A stretch of DNA of 32,008 bases from a virus. The DNA is taken from positions 1 through 32,008 of IMG/VR virus record IMGVR_UViG_3300018421_000107; one strand, given 5' to 3'. Below the pieces are notes generated by a model. It was not told the origin of the DNA and did not search any database. It saw nothing but the letters and a program-made list of their open reading frames with translations. Shown piece after piece: positions 21,831-32,008 of this stretch. Within the stretch, counting starts at the first letter, position 1; the number at the start of each line of letters is the position of its first letter. The position numbers and the translations under genes are program-made.

Positions 21831-23708
21831 TTATGACTCCGCTAAAACTTGAATGCTTCTCTTGACTAAGGATAAAAATACTTCTCTTCTTGCGAAGATA
21901 TCATAACTTCTAGGTTTCACCGTTACTTTTACAACTGATCCAGGTTCAGAAGTTCCAGTAATAACTAATGATGATTTTTGACCTAATAAAATCTCACCCG
22001 TTTCATAATTAATTGTCCCAATTGGTTCCCCAAGATATGTTTTGATGGAATTGTTGAGATAATATGCAAGAACATTCTTTGTAGTTCTATTACTATTTAC
22101 ATAGGATCCAGAGTAGTCATCTTCAAGAAATAGTGTATTGTCATATCCCTGAATATTGAATCCCGTAGAGGATAGAATAGGTGCATCAGTGTCAATCTGA
22201 AAAGCATTTACATAACACAGTTCATAAGATGCATTAGTATTCAAAACTGCCTGCAAATCTCTTCTGATAAACACCTTAGTGTCATTTCTGCTGATAGAAA
22301 TGTCAGCATCATCAATAACTGATACCAATTTACTATATTTTAGTTTACCGCCAAATTTACTCAATGCAGTTGATGCTTCATGTAAATCGATAGCAGTTTC
22401 TACTAAACTTTTGATTTCAGATGCAGTTGAAGTTGTTTCATCTGCATTGTAATATATGACAGAATCAATTACAGGGTAAACTACTGCTGGGTCAATAATA
22501 TCAACCGATAGAGATGCTACTTTATATTTCTGAAGTTTTTGCTTGATGAAGTTTTTAGAACTTGCTGATAATTTATCTCCAGACTTTGGTTTGATAACAA
22601 TTTTTACTCTTCCATATTCTGGTGGAGATGATTCCTCACCACCAAAGGCAAATAAGTCATCAACATTGGGATAAACAAGTCTAGTAATAGTTTCGTAGTC
22701 AGAAGCAGTCACTGCTCTATTCTGAGTAGAATAGAACCTAGGTGCTTGGAATTTAATTGAATCAATTGACTCAATTTCTGCACCACCTTCAGTTACTGGT
22801 GAATTTGCAATTGTAATAGTCTGCAAAGCAGGTACAGCACCAATATTATTGGTTACATTTCCAGAAAATACAAAGTTTTCATTACCTTGAATACCATTTG
22901 CATCACTTCCACTTGAAATGATGTATGTGACAGTAACTTGAGATCCATCGTCCAACTGCTGCCCAATTACTCCATCACCAAAAATGAGTTCATAACGCTC
23001 ATCTTCAATCTCCTGAATAAAATATACTTTTGATTCAGAATCGAGTTGAGTGATATTAGTGGATCTAGTATAGGTTACTTGCTCTGTACTGGATGCTGAT
23101 GGGGAAACATATACAACTAAAGTGTCAAGATCGATTCCAGAATTCTCTAATACAAATCTTTGATCTAGATCCTGACGATTTACATTGAAGGTAGATGTGA
23201 GGTATGTCCCTTCATACAGTGAGACCCCTGTAAAAGCCGCTGTAGCGCCTAAAGAAGGGGACTGGGGATCCACATACACCAAAGGTGTGGTAATGTCTGT
23301 TGGAGTCGAAAATGTATATGAATTATTATCTTTTATTGCAGTAAATACTGCTCCTGATCTGATAGTGATTGATGCTGGAGCACTACCAGTCAATCCATCA
23401 AATGTTGAAAAAATATTGAAAGTAAATGCTGCTTTAGATGACTTTGTGGATCTTGGCAAATACCCTAAATTTCTGGCATGTAAAATAATATTATCCCTAA
23501 GAACCGCTGAACTTAGGAATGATTCATTTGCCACCATATTAGACATAAATGCCTGATATGATGTGTTATATGCTAGAAGATCTACAATATTTGAAAGTGC
23601 AGATCCATCAAAGTCATAATCGCTAAAATCAGTATTATTCTTTAGATAGTCTTTTAATACTGCTTTTATCTGCTCAAAATCTAAATCTGTTAGTTTTGTA
23701 TTTGCCAT
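21831..23708 (-). CDS. 6: Baseplate wedge protein gp6 (baseplate J-like)
   Basis: This 625-residue protein is close in length to T4 gp6 (660). The N-terminal block LTDLDFEQIKAVLKDYLKN, then FDGSALSNIVDLLAYNTSYQ, and NESFLSSAVLRDNIILHARN is the standard gp6 start in T4-like phages. The middle has AVTASDYETITRLVYPNVDD and YGRVKIVIKPKSGD, typical of the baseplate J/gp6 family. gp6 forms the inner dimeric ring of the wedge and contacts gp25, gp53 and gp7. The ATG overlaps the gp25 stop by one base (TAATG), so translation is probably coupled. The gp7-like gene begins 3 nt after the stop. No truncation or frameshift was seen. Confidence 0.95.
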   Translation of the reverse strand: MANTKLTDLDFEQIKAVLKDYLKNNTDFSDYDFDGSALSNIVDLLAYNTSYQAFMSNMVANESFLSSAVLRDNIILHARNLGYLPRSTKSSKAAFTFNIFSTFDGLTGSAPASITIRSGAVFTAIKDNNSYTFSTPTDITTPLVYVDPQSPSLGATAAFTGVSLYEGTYLTSTFNVNRQDLDQRFVLENSGIDLDTLVVYVSPSASSTEQVTYTRSTNITQLDSESKVYFIQEIEDERYELIFGDGVIGQQLDDGSQVTVTYIISSGSDANGIQGNENFVFSGNVTNNIGAVPALQTITIANSPVTEGGAEIESIDSIKFQAPRFYSTQNRAVTASDYETITRLVYPNVDDLFAFGGEESSPPEYGRVKIVIKPKSGDKLSASSKNFIKQKLQKYKVASLSVDIIDPAVVYPVIDSVIYYNADETTSTASEIKSLVETAIDLHEASTALSKFGGKLKYSKLVSVIDDADISISRNDTKVFIRRDLQAVLNTNASYELCYVNAFQIDTDAPILSSTGFNIQGYDNTLFLEDDYSGSYVNSNRTTKNVLAYYLNNSIKTYLGEPIGTINYETGEILLGQKSSLVITGTSEPGSVVKVTVKPRSYDIFARREVFLSLVKRSIQVLAES

Positions 23709-24103
23709 TACCTAGTGCTCTCTAAAAACATGTCTACGGTCTGAAGATATGGTATACCAATGATGAAAAAGTTCAGTTGGGCAGAGAATCCGTTGTTTTC
23801 AAAATCTGGAGTTACCTCTACAGATTCCAATTCAACTCTCGGTTCATATGTCTTGATAAGACTCTCAATTTCTTGAGATAATGCTGCCGCAATACCAACG
23901 TCTATATTTTCAAATAGGAGACGATTTATGTTCGTACCCAAATTGGGTTGAAAAGGTCTTTCACCTTCATTCGTCAGAATCAAATGCTTTAATGCAGATG
24001 CAATAGCCTGCTCATTTCTTTTGATCAGAACATCCTTTGTTTTTGGATGCCGATCAAAAGAAAATGAAATATCTTTAAATGACCTAGATTTTTGTTGCGC
24101 CAT
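23708..24103 (-). CDS. 25: Baseplate wedge protein gp25
   Basis: This 131-residue protein matches T4 gp25 in length (132). It carries the family features: an N-terminal RSFKDISFSFDRHP, then NEQAIASALKHLILTNEGERPFQP in which the N-E-G-E-R-P-F-P core is diagnostic, LLFE, and the conserved E-P-R motif near residue 93 (TYEPRVELESV). gp25 sits at the inner baseplate and nucleates sheath assembly, and homologues occur in contractile tails and type VI secretion baseplates. Its TAA overlaps the gp6 ATG by one base. No clear Shine-Dalgarno sequence precedes the ATG. A late-promoter-like box lies 24 nt upstream. Confidence 0.95.
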   Translation of the reverse strand: MAQQKSRSFKDISFSFDRHPKTKDVLIKRNEQAIASALKHLILTNEGERPFQPNLGTNINRLLFENIDVGIAAALSQEIESLIKTYEPRVELESVEVTPDFENNGFSAQLNFFIIGIPYLQTVDMFLESTR

Positions 24104-24140: not shown

Positions 24141-24347
24141 CTATTGATGCCACCTTTCTACAAAATCATCAAATCCACCAGGACCTCCACAAGGTCTCGA
24201 AAGTCTGTCTGCTGGTGGTTTAGATGCTGCTCTTTTCTTATTTTCTTCATGCATTTTCAACCATTTTTCTGACTCCACCTCAGTAATTAGAGTCATACCC
24301 TCATTAATAAATTCTTCACTTTTGTCTACGTGATGATGATTTCCCAT
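24141..24347 (-). CDS. Small hypothetical protein, 68 aa
   Basis: The protein starts MGNHHHVDKSEEFINEG and ends GGPGGFDDFVERWHQ. It is charged, has no membrane segment, and has a natural His cluster (residues 4-6) near its start. I do not recognise a family. The start is well supported: AGGAGG lies 7 nt upstream of the ATG, the strongest Shine-Dalgarno site in the window. That site is embedded in a hairpin that may control expression (see the leader entry). It sits between the 49-residue basic protein gene and gp25, so it may be a small virion or assembly factor, but nothing in the sequence proves that. Confidence 0.75.
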   Translation of the reverse strand: MGNHHHVDKSEEFINEGMTLITEVESEKWLKMHEENKKRAASKPPADRLSRPCGGPGGFDDFVERWHQ

Positions 24348-24401
24348 GAAAAAACCTCCTAAAAGTCCATAAGAACTTTTTAGGAGGTTGCTATCTCCTA
24401 A
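24348..24401 (-). promoter_or_regulatory. Leader with two competing hairpins over terminator and SD
   Basis: Read 5' to 3' on the minus strand there are three complementary segments. Segment 1 is TTAGGAG (24401-24395), segment 2 CCTCCTAAAAAGT (24387-24375) and segment 3 ACTTTTAGGAGG (24366-24355), followed by TTTTTT and the ATG at 24347. Segments 2 and 3 form a 12-bp stem with one bulged base, followed by a U tract: an intrinsic terminator that also buries the AGGAGG ribosome site. Segments 1 and 2 can instead form a 7-bp stem that frees segment 3. The arrangement resembles an attenuator. Whether it switches, or is just a terminator reused as a ribosome site, cannot be told from sequence alone. 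Confidence 0.6.
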
Positions 24402-24417
24402 GGTATTTAGTCTCTAA

Positions 24418-24567
24418 TTACTTACCTTGACCTCGGTATGGTTTACGTGCATTATTACGACTAGTGGCAGCATACTTAGTATTGGCAGAACGTCCTTGAC
24501 GAGTCAATTTGGGTTTTCCTGGAACGTATCCAACACTCTTGTTCAAACCACCTTTTGCTTTTGCCAT
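24418..24567 (-). CDS. Small very basic protein, 49 aa
   Basis: This short reading frame encodes MAKAKGGLNKSVGYVPGKPK and continues with Arg/Lys/Gly-rich sequence to the end GQGK. About a quarter of residues are Lys or Arg and there are almost no acidic residues, so it should bind nucleic acid or an acidic protein surface. I recall similar ~50-residue basic proteins beside T4-like cyanophage structural genes, but have no named function. It begins 33 nt after the stop of the 994-residue gene and has its own extended -10 promoter (TGCTATACT) in that gap. The SD is poor (AAGAGAAC). The start is the only ATG giving this full basic protein. Confidence 0.75.
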   Translation of the reverse strand: MAKAKGGLNKSVGYVPGKPKLTRQGRSANTKYAATSRNNARKPYRGQGK

Positions 24568-28887: not shown

Positions 28888-29041
28888 TGTTTTCTATCAA
28901 TTCTACAGCAATTTCGTCAGGATCAGGCTCGCCCGTACTATGAAAGTCTTCTGCGAATCCTGCGAGAATATCCAACATTTCGTCTTCGGAAACCTCGGAG
29001 TAAATACGGCGACCTCGGCAATAGATGTTGTAATTGTCCAT
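28847..29041 (-). CDS. Small acidic hypothetical protein, 64 aa
   Basis: The protein starts MDNYNIYCRGRRIYSEVSED and is acidic, with a DPDEIAVELIENN segment. The opening (short beta strand, RG, IY, then an acidic helix) recalls small conserved cyanophage proteins, but I cannot name one. It is preceded by a strong extended -10 promoter (TGGTATAAT) whose hexamer lies about 24 nt upstream of the ATG, leaving a leader of roughly 17-18 nt without a good SD. This is likely the first gene of the unit that continues into the 62-residue and 271-residue genes. Codon use is less G+C-rich than in the region to the right. Confidence 0.65.
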   Translation of the reverse strand: MDNYNIYCRGRRIYSEVSEDEMLDILAGFAEDFHSTGEPDPDEIAVELIENNGKARYLTKPPTV

Positions 29042-29064
29042 AATTTGAATGACCTATAGTATGT

Positions 29065-29073
29065 ATTATACCA
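29065..29073 (-). promoter_or_regulatory. Extended -10 promoter, perfect TATAAT
   Basis: The minus strand reads TGGTATAAT: a perfect sigma-70 -10 hexamer with the TGn extension. No good -35 was found at 16-18 nt; that place holds a run of A/T instead. It lies just upstream of the 64-residue gene and probably drives that gene and those after it early in infection, using host sigma factor. Confidence 0.65.
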
Positions 29074-29187
29074 CGGAAAATTTTTTTGATCACTAGGTTC
29101 CCCTTTTGCAAATTCGAAAACAGAATACTTATCGCTCGTTTTCAAAGTTTTGTAGGTTAGAGGGACCCATTAGATTAATATACGGGG

Positions 29188-29209
29188 CGGTCGCAATAAG
29201 ACGCGACCG
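29188..29209. other. Perfect 7-bp inverted repeat in the 29.04-29.28 kb gap
   Basis: CGGTCGC and GCGACCG flank an 8-base loop (AATAAGAC), followed on the plus strand by TTCTC. It lies in the 242-nt gap between the nuclease terminator and the promoter of the 64-residue gene. There is no U tract on either strand, so it is not a typical terminator. It could be a protein binding site or an RNA structural element. Apart from this hairpin, the promoter at 29065 and the terminator at 29249, I see nothing in the gap. Confidence 0.4.
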
Positions 29210-29248
29210 TTCTCAATAACACTGCCAAAACACCTTTTTTGTTTTTTC

Positions 29249-29273
29249 AAAAAAGGCGAGGCACCCGCCCCGC
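29249..29273 (-). terminator. Intrinsic terminator after the nuclease gene
   Basis: On the minus strand GCGGGGC-GGGT-GCCTCGC forms a 7-bp stem (one G-U pair) followed by C and TTTTTT. It begins about 10 nt after the TGA of the nuclease gene at 29284. A second A/T-rich hairpin (CCTTTTTT / AAAAAAGG) follows immediately, which may reinforce termination. It marks the boundary between the G+C-rich small-gene region and the AT-rich structural region. Confidence 0.8.
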
Positions 29274-29283
29274 CGTGGTAGGA

Positions 29284-29781
29284 TCAGAAGTCTGCCAGAT
29301 CACGAAACCAGGGGCGCTTGCCGCTGCCTTGGATCCAGTAAAGTTCCTGCCCGCCGTCCTTGCCAGCATGTTGGCGGTGGTCATCACGACCAAGCACGAA
29401 CTGGCGGAGGTCATCCTTCGTCGCCCACCAGATGCTCACGTCGTTGGGGTTGATGCCGACGAAGATGATCCGATCGTAATCCTGTTCCCTGATCTGCTGC
29501 CAGGTCCAATTGTCCAGCGTCTCATTCCAGGTGGTGCTCACCTTGATCTCAGTCTTAATGCCGTTGATGATCCGATCATGCTCCGACGAAGCGGGACGAT
29601 CGACACGATGCCCGAGCGCCTCCATCACCTGCTCAACCAGACGCTCGCCCTGGGCGCCCTTGGATTTGGGAGAGGGGATGTTTCGGAAGGACTGAAACTT
29701 GCTGCCTTCCCAGATGCTTTGCTTGCTGCTCTCCCACTTCTGATAGATGGGGAGGGATTCGATGAGAGCGGTGTGAGTCAT
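29284..29781 (-). CDS. Probable PD-(D/E)XK-fold endonuclease, 165 aa
   Basis: The protein starts MTHTALIESLPIYQKWESSK. Numbering from this Met, KGAQGERLVEQVMEALG (E46 in the first helix), D69 in SEHDRIING, and E78-I-K80 in KTEIKVSTTW form the order Glu...Asp...Glu-x-Lys of the PD-(D/E)XK nuclease core, in which Asp and Glu bind metal and Lys supports catalysis. QQIREQDYD at ~95-103 and IIFVGINPNDV match the helix and strand that follow in many restriction-type members. It may cut host or competing phage DNA, or act in recombination; the target is unknown. I chose ATG 29781 over 29871 because an extended -10 promoter at 29809 would give a ~21-nt leader to it. The terminator directly downstream makes it a single-gene unit. 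It is G+C-rich compared with the structural genes. Confidence 0.65.
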   Translation of the reverse strand: MTHTALIESLPIYQKWESSKQSIWEGSKFQSFRNIPSPKSKGAQGERLVEQVMEALGHRVDRPASSEHDRIINGIKTEIKVSTTWNETLDNWTWQQIREQDYDRIIFVGINPNDVSIWWATKDDLRQFVLGRDDHRQHAGKDGGQELYWIQGSGKRPWFRDLADF

Positions 29782-29808
29782 GGTCCGTTGGTTTGGATCG
29801 TTAGGGAT

Positions 29809-29817
29809 ATTGTAGCA
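29809..29817 (-). promoter_or_regulatory. Extended -10 promoter of the nuclease gene
   Basis: The minus strand reads TGCTACAAT, an extended -10 element, within a 16-base block (plus strand GATATTGTAGCAGATC) that occurs again at 30069. It abuts the stop codon of the upstream 75-residue gene. The hexamer ends 27 nt before the chosen ATG, and the leader has no SD. Confidence 0.6.
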
Positions 29818-29819
29818 GA

Positions 29820-30047
29820 TCACCAGACGAGGGAAGTCGTCGGATAATCGAAGGCGTAGCGGTTGACCCATTGCCCTGCCGATTGCTTAAGGTCAGCAAG
29901 CAGGCGGACCATATCACGACGGCGGACGGTGTGGGATGAGATGCTGCCGCTGTGCCAGAAAATCATGGCACGACGGCGAAGGGGGAACAATCGGATCTCA
30001 GCGGTGGCAGTGGAGTCGGTTTCCAGGATGATGGCGAAGTCGCGCAT
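29820..30047 (-). CDS. Small basic hypothetical protein, 75 aa
   Basis: The protein reads MRDFAIILETDSTATAEIRL, then an Arg-rich stretch FPLRRRAMIFWHSGSISSHT and VRRRDMVRLLADLKQSAG. I do not recognise a family. The pattern of strand, Arg-rich turn, strand and helix suggests a compact fold that could bind nucleic acid, but no specific motif proves it. The start is supported by the extended -10 promoter at 30070, which predicts a leader of about 16 nt ending in CACC before the ATG. The stop is followed within a few bases by the nuclease promoter, so it stands alone as a transcription unit. Confidence 0.6.
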   Translation of the reverse strand: MRDFAIILETDSTATAEIRLFPLRRRAMIFWHSGSISSHTVRRRDMVRLLADLKQSAGQWVNRYAFDYPTTSLVW

Positions 30048-30069
30048 GGTGTCGGTGTCGTTCTTTGAT

Positions 30070-30078
30070 ATTGTAGCA
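30070..30078 (-). promoter_or_regulatory. Extended -10 promoter of the 75-aa gene
   Basis: The minus strand reads TGCTACAAT, inside the same 16-base block seen at 29807. A short GGGG-TGAT-CCCC inverted repeat, overlapping the preceding gene's stop, sits just upstream where a -35 would be. No TTGACA-like -35 is present. Confidence 0.6.
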
Positions 30079-30089
30079 GATCGGGGGGA

Positions 30090-30416
30090 TCACCCCAGGC
30101 GCATGGAGGAGAAGAACGGAACGGTGGTCGGACCCTGAGCGGTTCCCATGGTCACGAACCAGGACCAATCCTTCTGAAAGACGCGATCACAGGGTTCGCC
30201 GTGCTCTGCCAGGATGGCATTCAGGCGCGACTTGGTGGTGTTGGTCTGATGCCCACCATCAAACAGACGGATGAAATTGTCACCGATCTCAGCGATCAGG
30301 TTGCCATGGAGTCGGACCTGGGCGACCTCATCAGTATGGGTCACGCTGGTGTTGGCGCTGCTCCAGTTCTTGCCGTTGGAGATGGCAGCGTTCATTTGGG
30401 ATTCGATCTTTCGCAT
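30090..30416 (-). CDS. Conserved small cyanophage-type protein, 108 aa
   Basis: The protein begins MRKIESQMNAAISNGKNWSS and continues ANTSVTHTDEVAQVRLHGNL; later TTKSRLNAILAEHGE and a C-terminal FFSSMRLG. I recall short cyanophage proteins with the same plan (xKIExQMxxAIxxGxNW, then xVxLHGNxIA, then TTKSRLNAxL), so conservation is likely, but no function is known to me. It appears soluble and mixed alpha/beta, without membrane segments. A weak TATCTT box at 30444-30449 lies 28 nt before the ATG; the A/C-rich leader ends in CCTAAC. The next promoter follows directly after its TGA. Confidence 0.75.
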   Translation of the reverse strand: MRKIESQMNAAISNGKNWSSANTSVTHTDEVAQVRLHGNLIAEIGDNFIRLFDGGHQTNTTKSRLNAILAEHGEPCDRVFQKDWSWFVTMGTAQGPTTVPFFSSMRLG

Positions 30417-30443
30417 GTTAGGTGCTGTGCGGTTGACTTCTTA

Positions 30444-30449
30444 AAGATA
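30444..30449 (-). promoter_or_regulatory. Possible -10 box of the 108-aa gene
   Basis: The minus strand reads TATCTT at the spacing seen for neighbouring genes (28 nt to the ATG), preceded directly by TG rather than TGn. It is listed because of its position; the match alone is weak. Confidence 0.3.
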
Positions 30450-30476
30450 CAGGAGATGGGGGCGCTGTGCCACAAA

Positions 30477-30489
30477 AGTGGACAGTTCA
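30477..30489 (-). repeat. 13-bp repeat at a gene 3' end, copy 1
   Basis: Plus strand AGTGGACAGTTCA, identical to the copy at 31987. The stop codon of the 67-residue gene (TGA, 30487-30489) lies within it. On the minus strand the following bases allow a stem CTGT.CCAC / GTGG.ACAG around a TTTT loop, so the repeat may mark a 3' hairpin. Confidence 0.55.
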
Positions 30490-30690
30490 GCAACCGAACA
30501 CCAGATCAGCGATGGCATTGGTGTTGGCATCGGTGCGACACCAGCGGATCGGTTGACCTGAGGTCAGGCGCCAGATCATGCAGGGCTCTCCCCACTGCTG
30601 CCCGATCCTATAGGCGCTGTGAATGCTGCAGGAGTACTGGGCGCCGTGCTCATCGAATTTTTTCCAGGCGATGGGTTGGACTGCAAACAT
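30487..30690 (-). CDS. Small hypothetical protein, 67 aa
   Basis: The protein reads MFAVQPIAWKKFDEHGAQYS followed by CSIHSAYRIGQQWGEPCMIW, and ends ADLVFGC. It has four Cys and four Trp in 67 residues, which is unusual for such a short protein; the cysteines are not spaced as a simple zinc finger. I do not recognise a family. The start is supported by the extended -10 promoter TGATACAAT at 30712, giving a leader of about 15 nt that ends in AACC before the ATG. It looks like a single-gene unit; its stop lies within a 13-bp repeat. Confidence 0.6.
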   Translation of the reverse strand: MFAVQPIAWKKFDEHGAQYSCSIHSAYRIGQQWGEPCMIWRLTSGQPIRWCRTDANTNAIADLVFGC

Positions 30691-30711
30691 GGTTCGGGTG
30701 TCGTTGGTGGT

Positions 30712-30720
30712 ATTGTATCA
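30712..30720 (-). promoter_or_regulatory. Extended -10 promoter of the 67-aa gene
   Basis: The minus strand reads TGATACAAT, with TACAAT as in the promoters at 29809 and 30070. It lies between the small hairpin at the end of the 83-residue gene and the ATG at 30690. No -35 is visible. Confidence 0.6.
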
Positions 30721-30725
30721 CGGGA

Positions 30726-30738
30726 AGGGGCGACCCCT
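30726..30738 (-). terminator. Short G+C hairpin at the stop of the 83-aa gene
   Basis: On the minus strand AGGGG-TCG-CCCCT forms a 5-bp stem whose first base is the last base of the TGA stop. It is followed by TCCCG, not a U tract, so it is a weak terminator or an RNA-end stabiliser rather than a classical intrinsic terminator. Confidence 0.35.
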
Positions 30739-30989
30739 CACAGTTCCCAGATCATCTCCTCCATCTCTTGGGCATCGATGGCAGGGTCATCCCAGCGCAC
30801 ACCGTCACCCGTGGTTTCCAGATGGCGACCGATCTCCCCGTCAGTCATGCAGCGCACGAACTTCTCCCAGGCAGTCTCAATGCCCACCTCACGGTAGGTC
30901 ACACATGCCTTAGCAGTGTTGTAGAGGAACTCATCGTTGCCGATCCAGAGGGCAGCGTTCCAGGTTTCGAAGTTGGCGTAACCGTTCAT
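30738..30989 (-). CDS. Conserved small protein of the NGY-TWN type, 83 aa
   Basis: The protein begins MNGYANFETWNAALWIGNDE and ends in an acidic helix, DAQEMEEMIWEL. The opening NGYxNxxTWNxALWIxND is a recognisable signature of a short protein family found in phages and some bacteria (I think labelled DUF7249, unverified); function unknown to me. It is acidic and soluble. ATG at 30989 matches the family start. A promoter-like TGCCATACT lies 26 nt upstream, and the leader is A/C-rich and ends in CACC. It would be transcribed alone, with a G+C hairpin at its stop. Confidence 0.75.
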   Translation of the reverse strand: MNGYANFETWNAALWIGNDEFLYNTAKACVTYREVGIETAWEKFVRCMTDGEIGRHLETTGDGVRWDDPAIDAQEMEEMIWEL

Positions 30990-31014
30990 GGTGGTTCGTT
31001 TGGTTGATGTGATT

Positions 31015-31023
31015 AGTATGGCA
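31015..31023 (-). promoter_or_regulatory. Probable extended -10 promoter of the 83-aa gene
   Basis: The minus strand reads TGCCATACT. The hexamer CATACT matches TATAAT at four of six positions and keeps the TGn extension and spacing of its neighbours. A CCCCC/GGGGG inverted repeat lies just upstream (31023-31043). Confidence 0.45.
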
Positions 31024-31048
31024 CCCCCTGGCAGGGTCTGGGGGATTT

Positions 31049-31095
31049 GGTGGACACTTGCCCAACTGGTCGGGCAGCCGCCCAGTTTGTGTTAA
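31049..31095 (-). repeat. Dispersed ~48-bp intergenic repeat, copy B
   Basis: An imperfect copy of the element at 31673. On the minus strand both start TTAACACAAACTGGGC, continue with a small GGGC-GCCC hairpin, and end GTGTCCACC; they differ in the middle. This copy begins at the TAA stop of the 53-residue gene and runs into the region upstream of the 83-residue gene. Confidence 0.75.
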
Positions 31096-31253
31096 TTAGT
31101 GCCGAACATTTCTTGATACAAATCAAGATCCTGGTTCTTATACCTTTGGTTGGTCAACCAGATCTCTTGTTCGATCCAGGCAACTTGTGCCCTTGCCTTA
31201 AGCAAACTCTCACGCAGTTCGTAGAGTTTCTGATTACGTTCTGTGATGGTCAT
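31092..31253 (-). CDS. Small helical hypothetical protein, 53 aa
   Basis: The protein reads MTITERNQKLYELRESLLKA and continues RAQVAWIEQEIWLTNQRYKN, ending QEMFGTN. It is almost entirely predicted helix with heptad-like hydrophobic spacing, so a helical hairpin or coiled coil is likely. I know no named family. It starts 5 nt after the stop of the 66-residue gene and is the last gene of a three-gene set that begins at 31632. Its TAA lies inside the intergenic repeat, whose small hairpin could protect or terminate the transcript. Confidence 0.65.
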   Translation of the reverse strand: MTITERNQKLYELRESLLKARAQVAWIEQEIWLTNQRYKNQDLDLYQEMFGTN

Positions 31254-31258
31254 TTGTA

Positions 31259-31459
31259 TCAGTAGCGAGAATCGTTGTTGAATTCTTTATACACTTGGGC
31301 AACTTCTTCCCAGTGATAATCTTTCAGAGGACCACACATATCCTCCATCCAATCATAAACCATGCCCCAATCGGCATCGTTTTGAGTGATGAATGAGGGA
31401 AGCGATTGCAGATAAAAGTTGAAGGAATTCATGGCAAAAGTGCAAGGATCAGTGTACAT
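31259..31459 (-). CDS. Small hypothetical protein, 66 aa
   Basis: The protein reads MYTDPCTFAMNSFNFYLQSL, then PSFITQNDADWGMVYDWMED and a C-terminus ending NNDSRY. It is acidic and aromatic-rich. I do not recognise a family. ATG at 31459 lies 2 nt after the stop of the preceding 56-residue gene, which fits coupled translation; an internal ATG (MNSFNFYLQSLP, 31432) is an alternative start and looks like the beginning of the folded part. Base composition is more balanced than in the 29.3-31.0 kb genes. Confidence 0.65.
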   Translation of the reverse strand: MYTDPCTFAMNSFNFYLQSLPSFITQNDADWGMVYDWMEDMCGPLKDYHWEEVAQVYKEFNNDSRY

Positions 31460-31461
31460 AA

Positions 31462-31632
31462 TCAGAGACCGTTGAGCATGTCAGCGATTGCCTCGCGATA
31501 CTCTTCTTCAGTCTCAAAGACGCGACCGTGAACGGTCTTGGGGAACTCACCCATCTTAGCAGGGGTGGGCACGTAGTCGCGACCCTTGGCGTAGATCTGA
31601 GCGATGTAGGGATTGGAAGTGGTTTTGTTCAT
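31462..31632 (-). CDS. Small hypothetical protein, 56 aa
   Basis: From ATG 31632 the protein reads MNKTTSNPYIAQIYAKGRDY and VPTPAKMGEFPKTVHGRVFE, ending in an acidic helix EEEYREAIADMLNGL. I do not recognise a family. The longer reading frame to 31689 would add a Cys/Pro-rich, low-complexity lead that lies in intergenic repeat-like sequence, so I prefer the shorter start. No SD is visible. TGCCATCAT 7 nt upstream resembles an extended -10 box; if used, the message would start at or near the ATG (leaderless). It heads a tight set with the 66- and 53-residue genes (gaps of 2 and 5 nt). Confidence 0.6.
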   Translation of the reverse strand: MNKTTSNPYIAQIYAKGRDYVPTPAKMGEFPKTVHGRVFETEEEYREAIADMLNGL

Positions 31633-31672
31633 ACAGGTATGATGGCACAGAATCGGGGGCAATGGGGCGAAT

Positions 31673-31721
31673 GGTGGACACTGTGCCAACCGTCCACGGG
31701 CGGCTGCCCAGTTTGTGTTAA
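31673..31721 (-). repeat. Dispersed ~48-bp intergenic repeat, copy A
   Basis: The partner of the copy at 31049. On the minus strand it reads TTAACACAAACTGGGC, a GGGC-AGCC-GCCC hairpin, then CGTGGAC ... GTCCACC, which can form an additional 6-bp GTGGAC/GTCCAC stem. It lies 4 nt after the stop of the 68-residue gene at 31726 and upstream of the 56-residue gene. Confidence 0.75.
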
Positions 31722-31725
31722 GAAC

Positions 31726-31932
31726 TCACTGAGAGTTTGCTTCACTTTCTACCAGAAGTTCAGGGTAATACTCTTCAACTTCTGCGATCAGTTCATTAAC
31801 ACTATACGACTCAAGATTTTGGTCCATGTAGTCATAAACTAACGCACACAGATCTTTAACATCCATTCCATCAATTATCTCATTGATATAAAGATCTTGC
31901 AACTTGTCACGATCGATGATACGATCTGCCAT
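31726..31932 (-). CDS. Small acidic conserved-type phage protein, 68 aa
   Basis: From ATG 31932 the protein begins MADRIIDRDKLQDLYINEII, followed by DGMDVKDLCALVYDYMDQNL and ELIAEVEEYYPELLVE. I recall short cyanophage proteins with the same layout (LxxLYIxEIxxGMxxKDLxxxV, then LxxEVxxYxPxLL), so it is likely conserved, function unknown. It is strongly acidic and helical. I prefer this start over 31965 because the extra residues (MGYYIINRKNS) come from the promoter-like A/T stretch and family members begin near here. A TATTAT box at about 31954-31959 would give a leader of about 15-20 nt. It is followed by intergenic repeat copy A. Confidence 0.7.
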   Translation of the reverse strand: MADRIIDRDKLQDLYINEIIDGMDVKDLCALVYDYMDQNLESYSVNELIAEVEEYYPELLVESEANSQ

Positions 31933-31959
31933 GGAATTCTTGCGATTGATAATATAATA

Positions 31960-31981
31960 CCCCATCCGAGCACGAATGGGG
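31960..31981 (-). terminator. Hairpin with A/T tail at the right end
   Basis: On the minus strand CCCCAT and ATGGGG form a 6-bp stem around a 10-base loop, followed by TATTATATTAT. It may end the transcript of a gene beyond the right edge while its A/T tail supplies the -10 box of the 68-residue gene. The tail is mixed A/T rather than a U run, so termination is uncertain. Confidence 0.4.
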
Positions 31982-31986
31982 CAATT

Positions 31987-32008
31987 AGTGGACAGTTCAG
32001 AAACTGTC
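31987..32008 (-). repeat. 13-bp repeat, copy 2, with inverted repeat at window edge
   Basis: Plus strand AGTGGACAGTTCA (31987-31999) is identical to the copy at 30477. Here GACAGTT and AACTGTC also form a 7-bp inverted repeat (31991-32008) cut by the window end. It probably marks the 3' end of a minus-strand gene lying outside the window; TGA at 31997-31999 is placed as in copy 1, where it is the stop codon. Confidence 0.5.

Follow-up and report, generated by a model that had tools for sequence, protein, structure and literature searches.

What governs the start of a small phage gene whose ribosome-binding site lies inside one of two mutually exclusive hairpins? The question is raised by a minus-strand leader in IMGVR_UViG_3300018421_000107, of which the whole stretch of 32,008 nt analyzed is here called the window. 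From 24401 to 24345 the minus strand reads TTAGGAG-ATAGCAAC-CTCCTAAAAAGTTCTTATGGACTTTTAGGAGG-TTTTTTC-ATG, and the features of this leader and its neighbors are as follows, in the order of transcription.

24418-24567, minus strand: 49-residue gene of phrog_516, upstream of the element
24404..24410, minus strand: CTAAATA, a site resembling a T4-type late promoter, from the sequence
24395..24401, minus strand: segment 1, TTAGGAG, the 5' strand of stem P1, from the P1 pairing and its covariation
24387..24394, minus strand: invariant loop ATAGCAAC (AUAGYAAC), found also in leaders located by protein similarity
24389-24387, minus strand: the last AAC of the loop, a proposed pseudoknot strand
24387-24375, minus strand: segment 2, CCTCCTAAAAAGT, from the sequence
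24380..24386, minus strand: segment 2 core CTCCTAA, both the 3' strand of P1 and the 5' strand of the hairpin that hides the Shine-Dalgarno (SD) sequence, from folding and compensatory changes
24373..24380, minus strand: invariant linker AAAAGTTC, invariant in the A1/A2 leaders
24376-24374, minus strand: GUU of the linker, able to pair with the loop AAC or to sit in the SD hairpin
24355..24366, minus strand: segment 3, the 3' arm ACTTTTAGGAGG, from compensatory changes with segment 2
24360-24355, minus strand: SD sequence AGGAGG inside segment 3, from the sequence
24349..24354, minus strand: T6 tract, a terminator-like U run and the spacer between SD and ATG, from the sequence
24141..24347, minus strand: small gene of 68 aa with its ATG at 24347 (phrog_12480/1414/1336)
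23708..24103, minus strand (read from 24103 to 23708): gp25 baseplate wedge gene, next in the cassette (PF04965, phrog_261)

The first-pass annotation had proposed that segment 2 pairs with either segment 1 or segment 3, and every position it gave was correct. Segments 1 and 2 form 7 bp closing the loop ATAGCAAC (24394-24387), and segments 2 and 3 form about 14 bp with one bulged A, which excludes the 1-2 pairing. As had also been recognized, the 2-3 pairing in the window hides AGGAGG and yields a GC-rich stem followed by T6 (24387-24349), the configuration of an intrinsic terminator. RNA folding, which the same source had recommended, gave -24.1 kcal/mol for a 91-nt leader (z = -3.5, a stability matched by 0 of 200 shuffles). 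Within the 32 kb the exact inverted repeat is found once, as is the motif GATAGYAACC..AAAGTTC, and none is expected by chance in either case. In the computed fold the 2-3 structure is favored energetically and pairs the window SD with a probability of about 1.0, and forcing stem 1-2 costs about 4.6 kcal/mol, a value in which the energy of a pseudoknot is not counted.

Protein searches with the 68-residue and 49-residue neighbors led to 160 viral loci, and the leaders of these protein-found loci share a stem-AUAGYAAC-stem, a linker with AAAAGUUC, and then an SD-bearing hairpin; the sequences in this and all other counts given here are related, with shuffle and correlation statistics inflated and independence overstated. 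A motif scan found at least 120 stretches, and among the matches listed 199 of 201 distinct copies precede one small-protein family, while the other two look like chance matches. In the same listed matches, gp25 comes next in 186 of the 187 copies with enough DNA, followed by gp6, and the 49-residue phrog_516 gene, which is very widespread in these phages, lies upstream in 175 of 199 loci. In motif-found leaders part of the loop is dictated by the search pattern (G...CC), and conservation is therefore claimed from the protein-found loci instead. Run on 90 protein-found loci, a covariance model scored 83 matches at 38.7 bits or more, and everything below them was noise of at most 18.3 bits; such bimodal scores on leaders found without the motif argue that the conservation of loop and linker is not an artefact of the pattern. 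Of 18 complete cyanophage genomes, 13 each contain exactly one strong match to the model (S-H38, S-BM3, S-CAM3, ACG-2014d, S-H9-1, S-WAM2, S-RIM4, DSL-LC03, S-SRM01, DSL-LC02, S-SKS1, S-SCSM1, and S-RSM4), and the element is not found in the other five (S-PM2, S-WAM1, S-RIM2, S-SM1, and ACG-2014i). As judged from sequence, the element is carried by hundreds of viruses of photosynthetic bacteria, ahead of a small gene that heads tail-baseplate genes.

Cellular copies were considered and rejected: among the 80 scored genome-collection loci listed, the only strong match is a misbinned cyanophage contig and the second-best lies inside a mannosidase-like gene. A contig filed under a Lokiarchaeota MAG (L361, 1-6096) is a piece of a T4-like cyanophage with the element, the small gene, gp25, and gp6. 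In S-SKS1 (L421, about 750-950) and S-SCSM1 (L422, about 748-869) the element is present with a small ORF, the gene being unannotated.

The most conserved parts of the window are the 1-2 loop and the AAAAGTTC linker, both absent from the first-pass annotation, which had allowed that relatives might keep only the 2-3 stem and leave segment 1 unconserved. Compensatory changes preserve both stems in window-type leaders, and across all leaders, contrary to that condition, stem 1-2 together with its loop occurs much more widely than stem 2-3. Across leaders P1 is a stem of 3-8 bp in which the precise sequence is free and the pairing is kept; its pair 2 covaries (GC in 20, AU in 12, CG in 1, and UA in 1, paired in 34/34), and P1 cells are paired in 98.5% of cases in window-type leaders. 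The loop AUAGYAAC varies only at Y, which is C, T or, in phage DSL-LC03, A, and the A-rich linker after P1 carries an invariant AAAAGUUC. The element thus has the covarying stem and the invariant unpaired bases of an aptamer-like core. This core probably folds as an H-type pseudoknot, with the loop AAC paired to GUU. The distance from P1 to GUU, and with it linker length, increases with P1 length (Spearman 0.65, a value inflated by kinship), as expected of a pseudoknot that would have to cross the longer stem. The AAC and GUU strands never vary, and two variant-pattern scans for pseudoknot covariation gave no matches. Another contact, in which loop UAGC may pair with GCUA after the SD, is listed among the readings tried and rejected, and the sequence counts are suggestive: GCTA follows the SD in 63 of 143 leaders with loop AUAGCAAC vs. 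1 of 17 with loop AUAGUAAC, and ACTA in 2 of 17 T-loop leaders, kinship being uncontrolled in both comparisons.

The hairpin that hides the SD takes more than one form, as assigned by our own rule on 164 distinct leaders. In type A (129/164) the arrangement is CUG...CAG-GAG, where UUCUG beside the linker pairs with CAGGA of the SD, and a few of these leaders place the SD in the loop and not in the stem. In type B (about 20/164, the window included) the pairing of the 3' arm extends back through the linker as far as the P1 3' strand, and about 13/164 leaders have neither hairpin. The second base of the P1 3' strand in type B is U or C and is matched by A or G in both partners, a compensatory pattern, and the segment 2-3 duplex averages -15.8 kcal/mol vs. 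-14.0 kcal/mol when the 3' arms are swapped between leaders (0 of 5000 permutations as good). In the default fold, mean SD pairing is 0.97 for type B and 0.79 for type A, compared with 0.46-0.54 at gp25 and gp6 starts, a control of few sites (10 gp25 and 31 gp6). Window-type leaders combine mutual exclusion of the core and the SD/terminator hairpin with conservation of both; in type A, competition between core and SD would run only through GUU.

That a U-tract terminator is the core device, as first proposed, is not supported: only some window-type leaders have a U tract, others read GGAGG-AAAA, and most leaders form a different SD hairpin. Because the U tract is found in only part of type B, termination appears optional and SD sequestration the common feature. 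A plain intrinsic terminator that happens to overlap a strong ribosome site would explain the GC-rich stem and U6 of the window and of some of its relatives, but most relatives lack the U tract and the long stem yet keep P1, loop, and linker, and both window-type stems covary, so that this explanation is highly unlikely. Elsewhere in the window, the clearest plain terminator in the scanned part is a GC-rich stem, GGCGGGGCGGGTGCCTCGCC, followed by T6 at 29255-29274 on the minus strand, near a change in composition. From 29000 to 32008 G+C rises from about 0.38 to 0.46-0.57 and gene content differs, with a 195-aa minus-strand ORF at 29284-29871 within the high-G+C part; this end of the window could be cargo, host DNA, or an assembly join.

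Many of the leaders also carry a putative late promoter at a fixed distance from the loop. In 98 of the 186 leaders among the matches listed, NTAAATA has its end 8-12 nt ahead of the loop (shuffled mean 1.2), and it is almost absent elsewhere in the leader stretch; the remaining 88 of these 186 have no such promoter. The T4 late promoter is TATAAATA at -13 to -6, with a first T that is poorly conserved in S-PM2 and with CTAAATA in Aeh1 (PMC1524935), and g33 and g55 are retained by cyanomyoviruses (PMC2984593). By analogy, a late mRNA would start 3-7 nt before the loop, i.e., with P1. The predicted start in the window, from a CTAAATA site that the first-pass annotation had not noted, is 24398/24399, inside segment 1, and late transcripts would consequently carry only (A)GGAG of that segment. 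A start inside P1, together with a stem whose sequence is free and whose pairing is kept, also suits a stability element that shields the 5' end of late mRNA from RNases without any switch. We regard this as improbable, since it leaves the invariant loop, AAAAGUUC, and SD sequestration unexplained and since 88 of the 186 listed leaders lack the promoter altogether.

The promoter also bears on the suggestion that the leader senses translation of the 49-residue gene. The gene upstream differs between phages (the 49-residue gene, purM, an adenosylmethionine decarboxylase gene, or a 2OG oxygenase), and about half of the leaders have the late promoter downstream of that gene and ahead of the stem. 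The earlier idea of an attenuator or translation switch thus survives in its alternative structures over the SD, and is not supported in its terminator core or its sensing of upstream translation. In a broader form of the idea, ribosomes ending any upstream gene would disrupt P1 and thereby set the SD hairpin; upstream frames do end near or within the element, and about 24 leaders have the stop codon inside the loop (AUAG). Given upstream genes that differ, a promoter whose transcript would exclude them in about half of the leaders, and an invariant loop that stays unexplained, such translation attenuation is very improbable. Neither a terminator core nor upstream-translation sensing accounts for the invariant loop and linker. 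On the sequences compared, the hairpin pair of the window is one form of a wider element, made of a stem with the AUAGYAAC loop, a linker ending in AAAAGUUC, and an SD-hiding hairpin.

The small protein itself offers few clues. Its 68 aa have no Pfam match, its PHROGs are without function, and no PDB match and no RNA-binding family or fold was found, the structural model not being confident (pLDDT 66). The family is modular, with a shared N-terminus (VDRDxxYMxxMWGT), which is lost in three loci (L116, L120, and L230), and with one of two unrelated C-termini (RPCGGxGGFDDFVERWHE or IRNDxDYDDWEYGTEP); the protein varies greatly while the RNA core is nearly invariant. Autogenous repression, in which the small protein would bind its own leader as some T4 proteins do, fits an element that is single-copy and tied one-to-one to the small-gene family among the matches listed. 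It is nevertheless unlikely, as the RNA core is almost identical across two unrelated C-termini and a losable N-terminus, and the protein shows no RNA-binding family or fold. Since the core is nearly invariant and the protein swaps or loses parts, the ligand is less likely to be the small protein than something shared by all of these phages or by their hosts.

We consider it likely, on comparative sequence evidence, that the element is a cis-regulatory RNA switch heading the small gene-gp25-gp6 baseplate cassette of T4-like cyanophages, and for its ligand, polarity, and pseudoknot we infer the following scheme. In the predicted default nested fold a hairpin pairs the SD and would hide the small gene from ribosomes, and in type B this hairpin takes the P1 3' strand, making P1 and SD hiding exclusive. 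One ligand shared across all these phages, possibly a small molecule or a conserved protein of phage or host, would stabilize the core pseudoknot (AAC with GUU). Core formation would pull the P1 3' strand and GUUC off the SD hairpin, the formed core being the ON state, with translation of the small gene and probably also of downstream gp25. Without the core, the SD would stay hidden and, where a U tract is present, transcription may also stop. Many leaders have a putative late promoter, and late mRNA begun there would carry the stem at its 5' end. Against such a switch counts the small gene kept without the element in S-PM2, S-RIM32, S-H9-2, and ACG-2014i; in S-PM2, S-RIM32, and S-H9-2 the small gene overlaps the preceding gene.

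Known RNAs provide partial parallels for such a switch. Leaders of the preQ1-I type have a short stem, a conserved loop, an A-rich linker, and a downstream strand that pairs with the loop, forming a platform over the SD or terminator, and the element shares this small H-type pseudoknot layout insofar as its proposed pseudoknot forms. It is conceivable but doubtful that the element is a new riboswitch class, in which late mRNA would open with a minimal pseudoknot aptamer that responds to a metabolite in infected cells and sets the timing of baseplate translation; unlike known riboswitches, the element matches no Rfam riboswitch and is tied to one phage gene cassette. No Rfam family matches over its gathering score across the 32 kb. 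GP20-b (RF03003), of the Rfam type cis-regulatory, is similar in having a hairpin, an 8-nt loop with GCAAC, and then CCUAAAAA, but its tail is AGC where the element has GUUC, and its extra 5' stem is absent here. It was rejected as an identity: the window reaches 21.2 bits where the gathering score is 36.2, searches of 12 relatives up to E 1 gave no match, and a scan with a 25-nt GP20-b core pattern gave no matches. Among T4 operators, that of gene 43 is a hairpin with an 8-nt loop and that of gene 32 a 5' pseudoknot, both near the SD and bound by a phage protein, and the element resembles them as a phage mRNA leader structure near the SD. The window also holds AGCAACCU, which we take to resemble a selected gp43-binding loop. 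A gp43 operator was rejected, the element being single-copy upstream of the small gene, a different gene from 43, and of 12 gene 43 leaders from element-bearing phages the seven that could be read and were counted lack a GCAAC hairpin. The manA, wcaG, glnA, and PhotoRC-II RNAs are structured RNAs of T4-like cyanophages, some of them riboswitch candidates (PMC2864571), and differ from the element in sequence and in associated genes. S-CREM1 carries the element at about 95.1 kb, and a paper that catalogued the Rfam RNAs of that phage reported only abiF, wcaG, manA, and glnA, at other positions, and not the element (PMC9964418). No description of the element was found in the literature searched.

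T4-like cyanophages are very abundant in natural waters, and to our knowledge little is known of the timing of their late gene expression. The element is a candidate new class of cis-regulatory RNA, absent from Rfam, and as a small (about 60 nt), single-copy, and nearly invariant structure it may offer a target for the study of late-gene timing in these phages.
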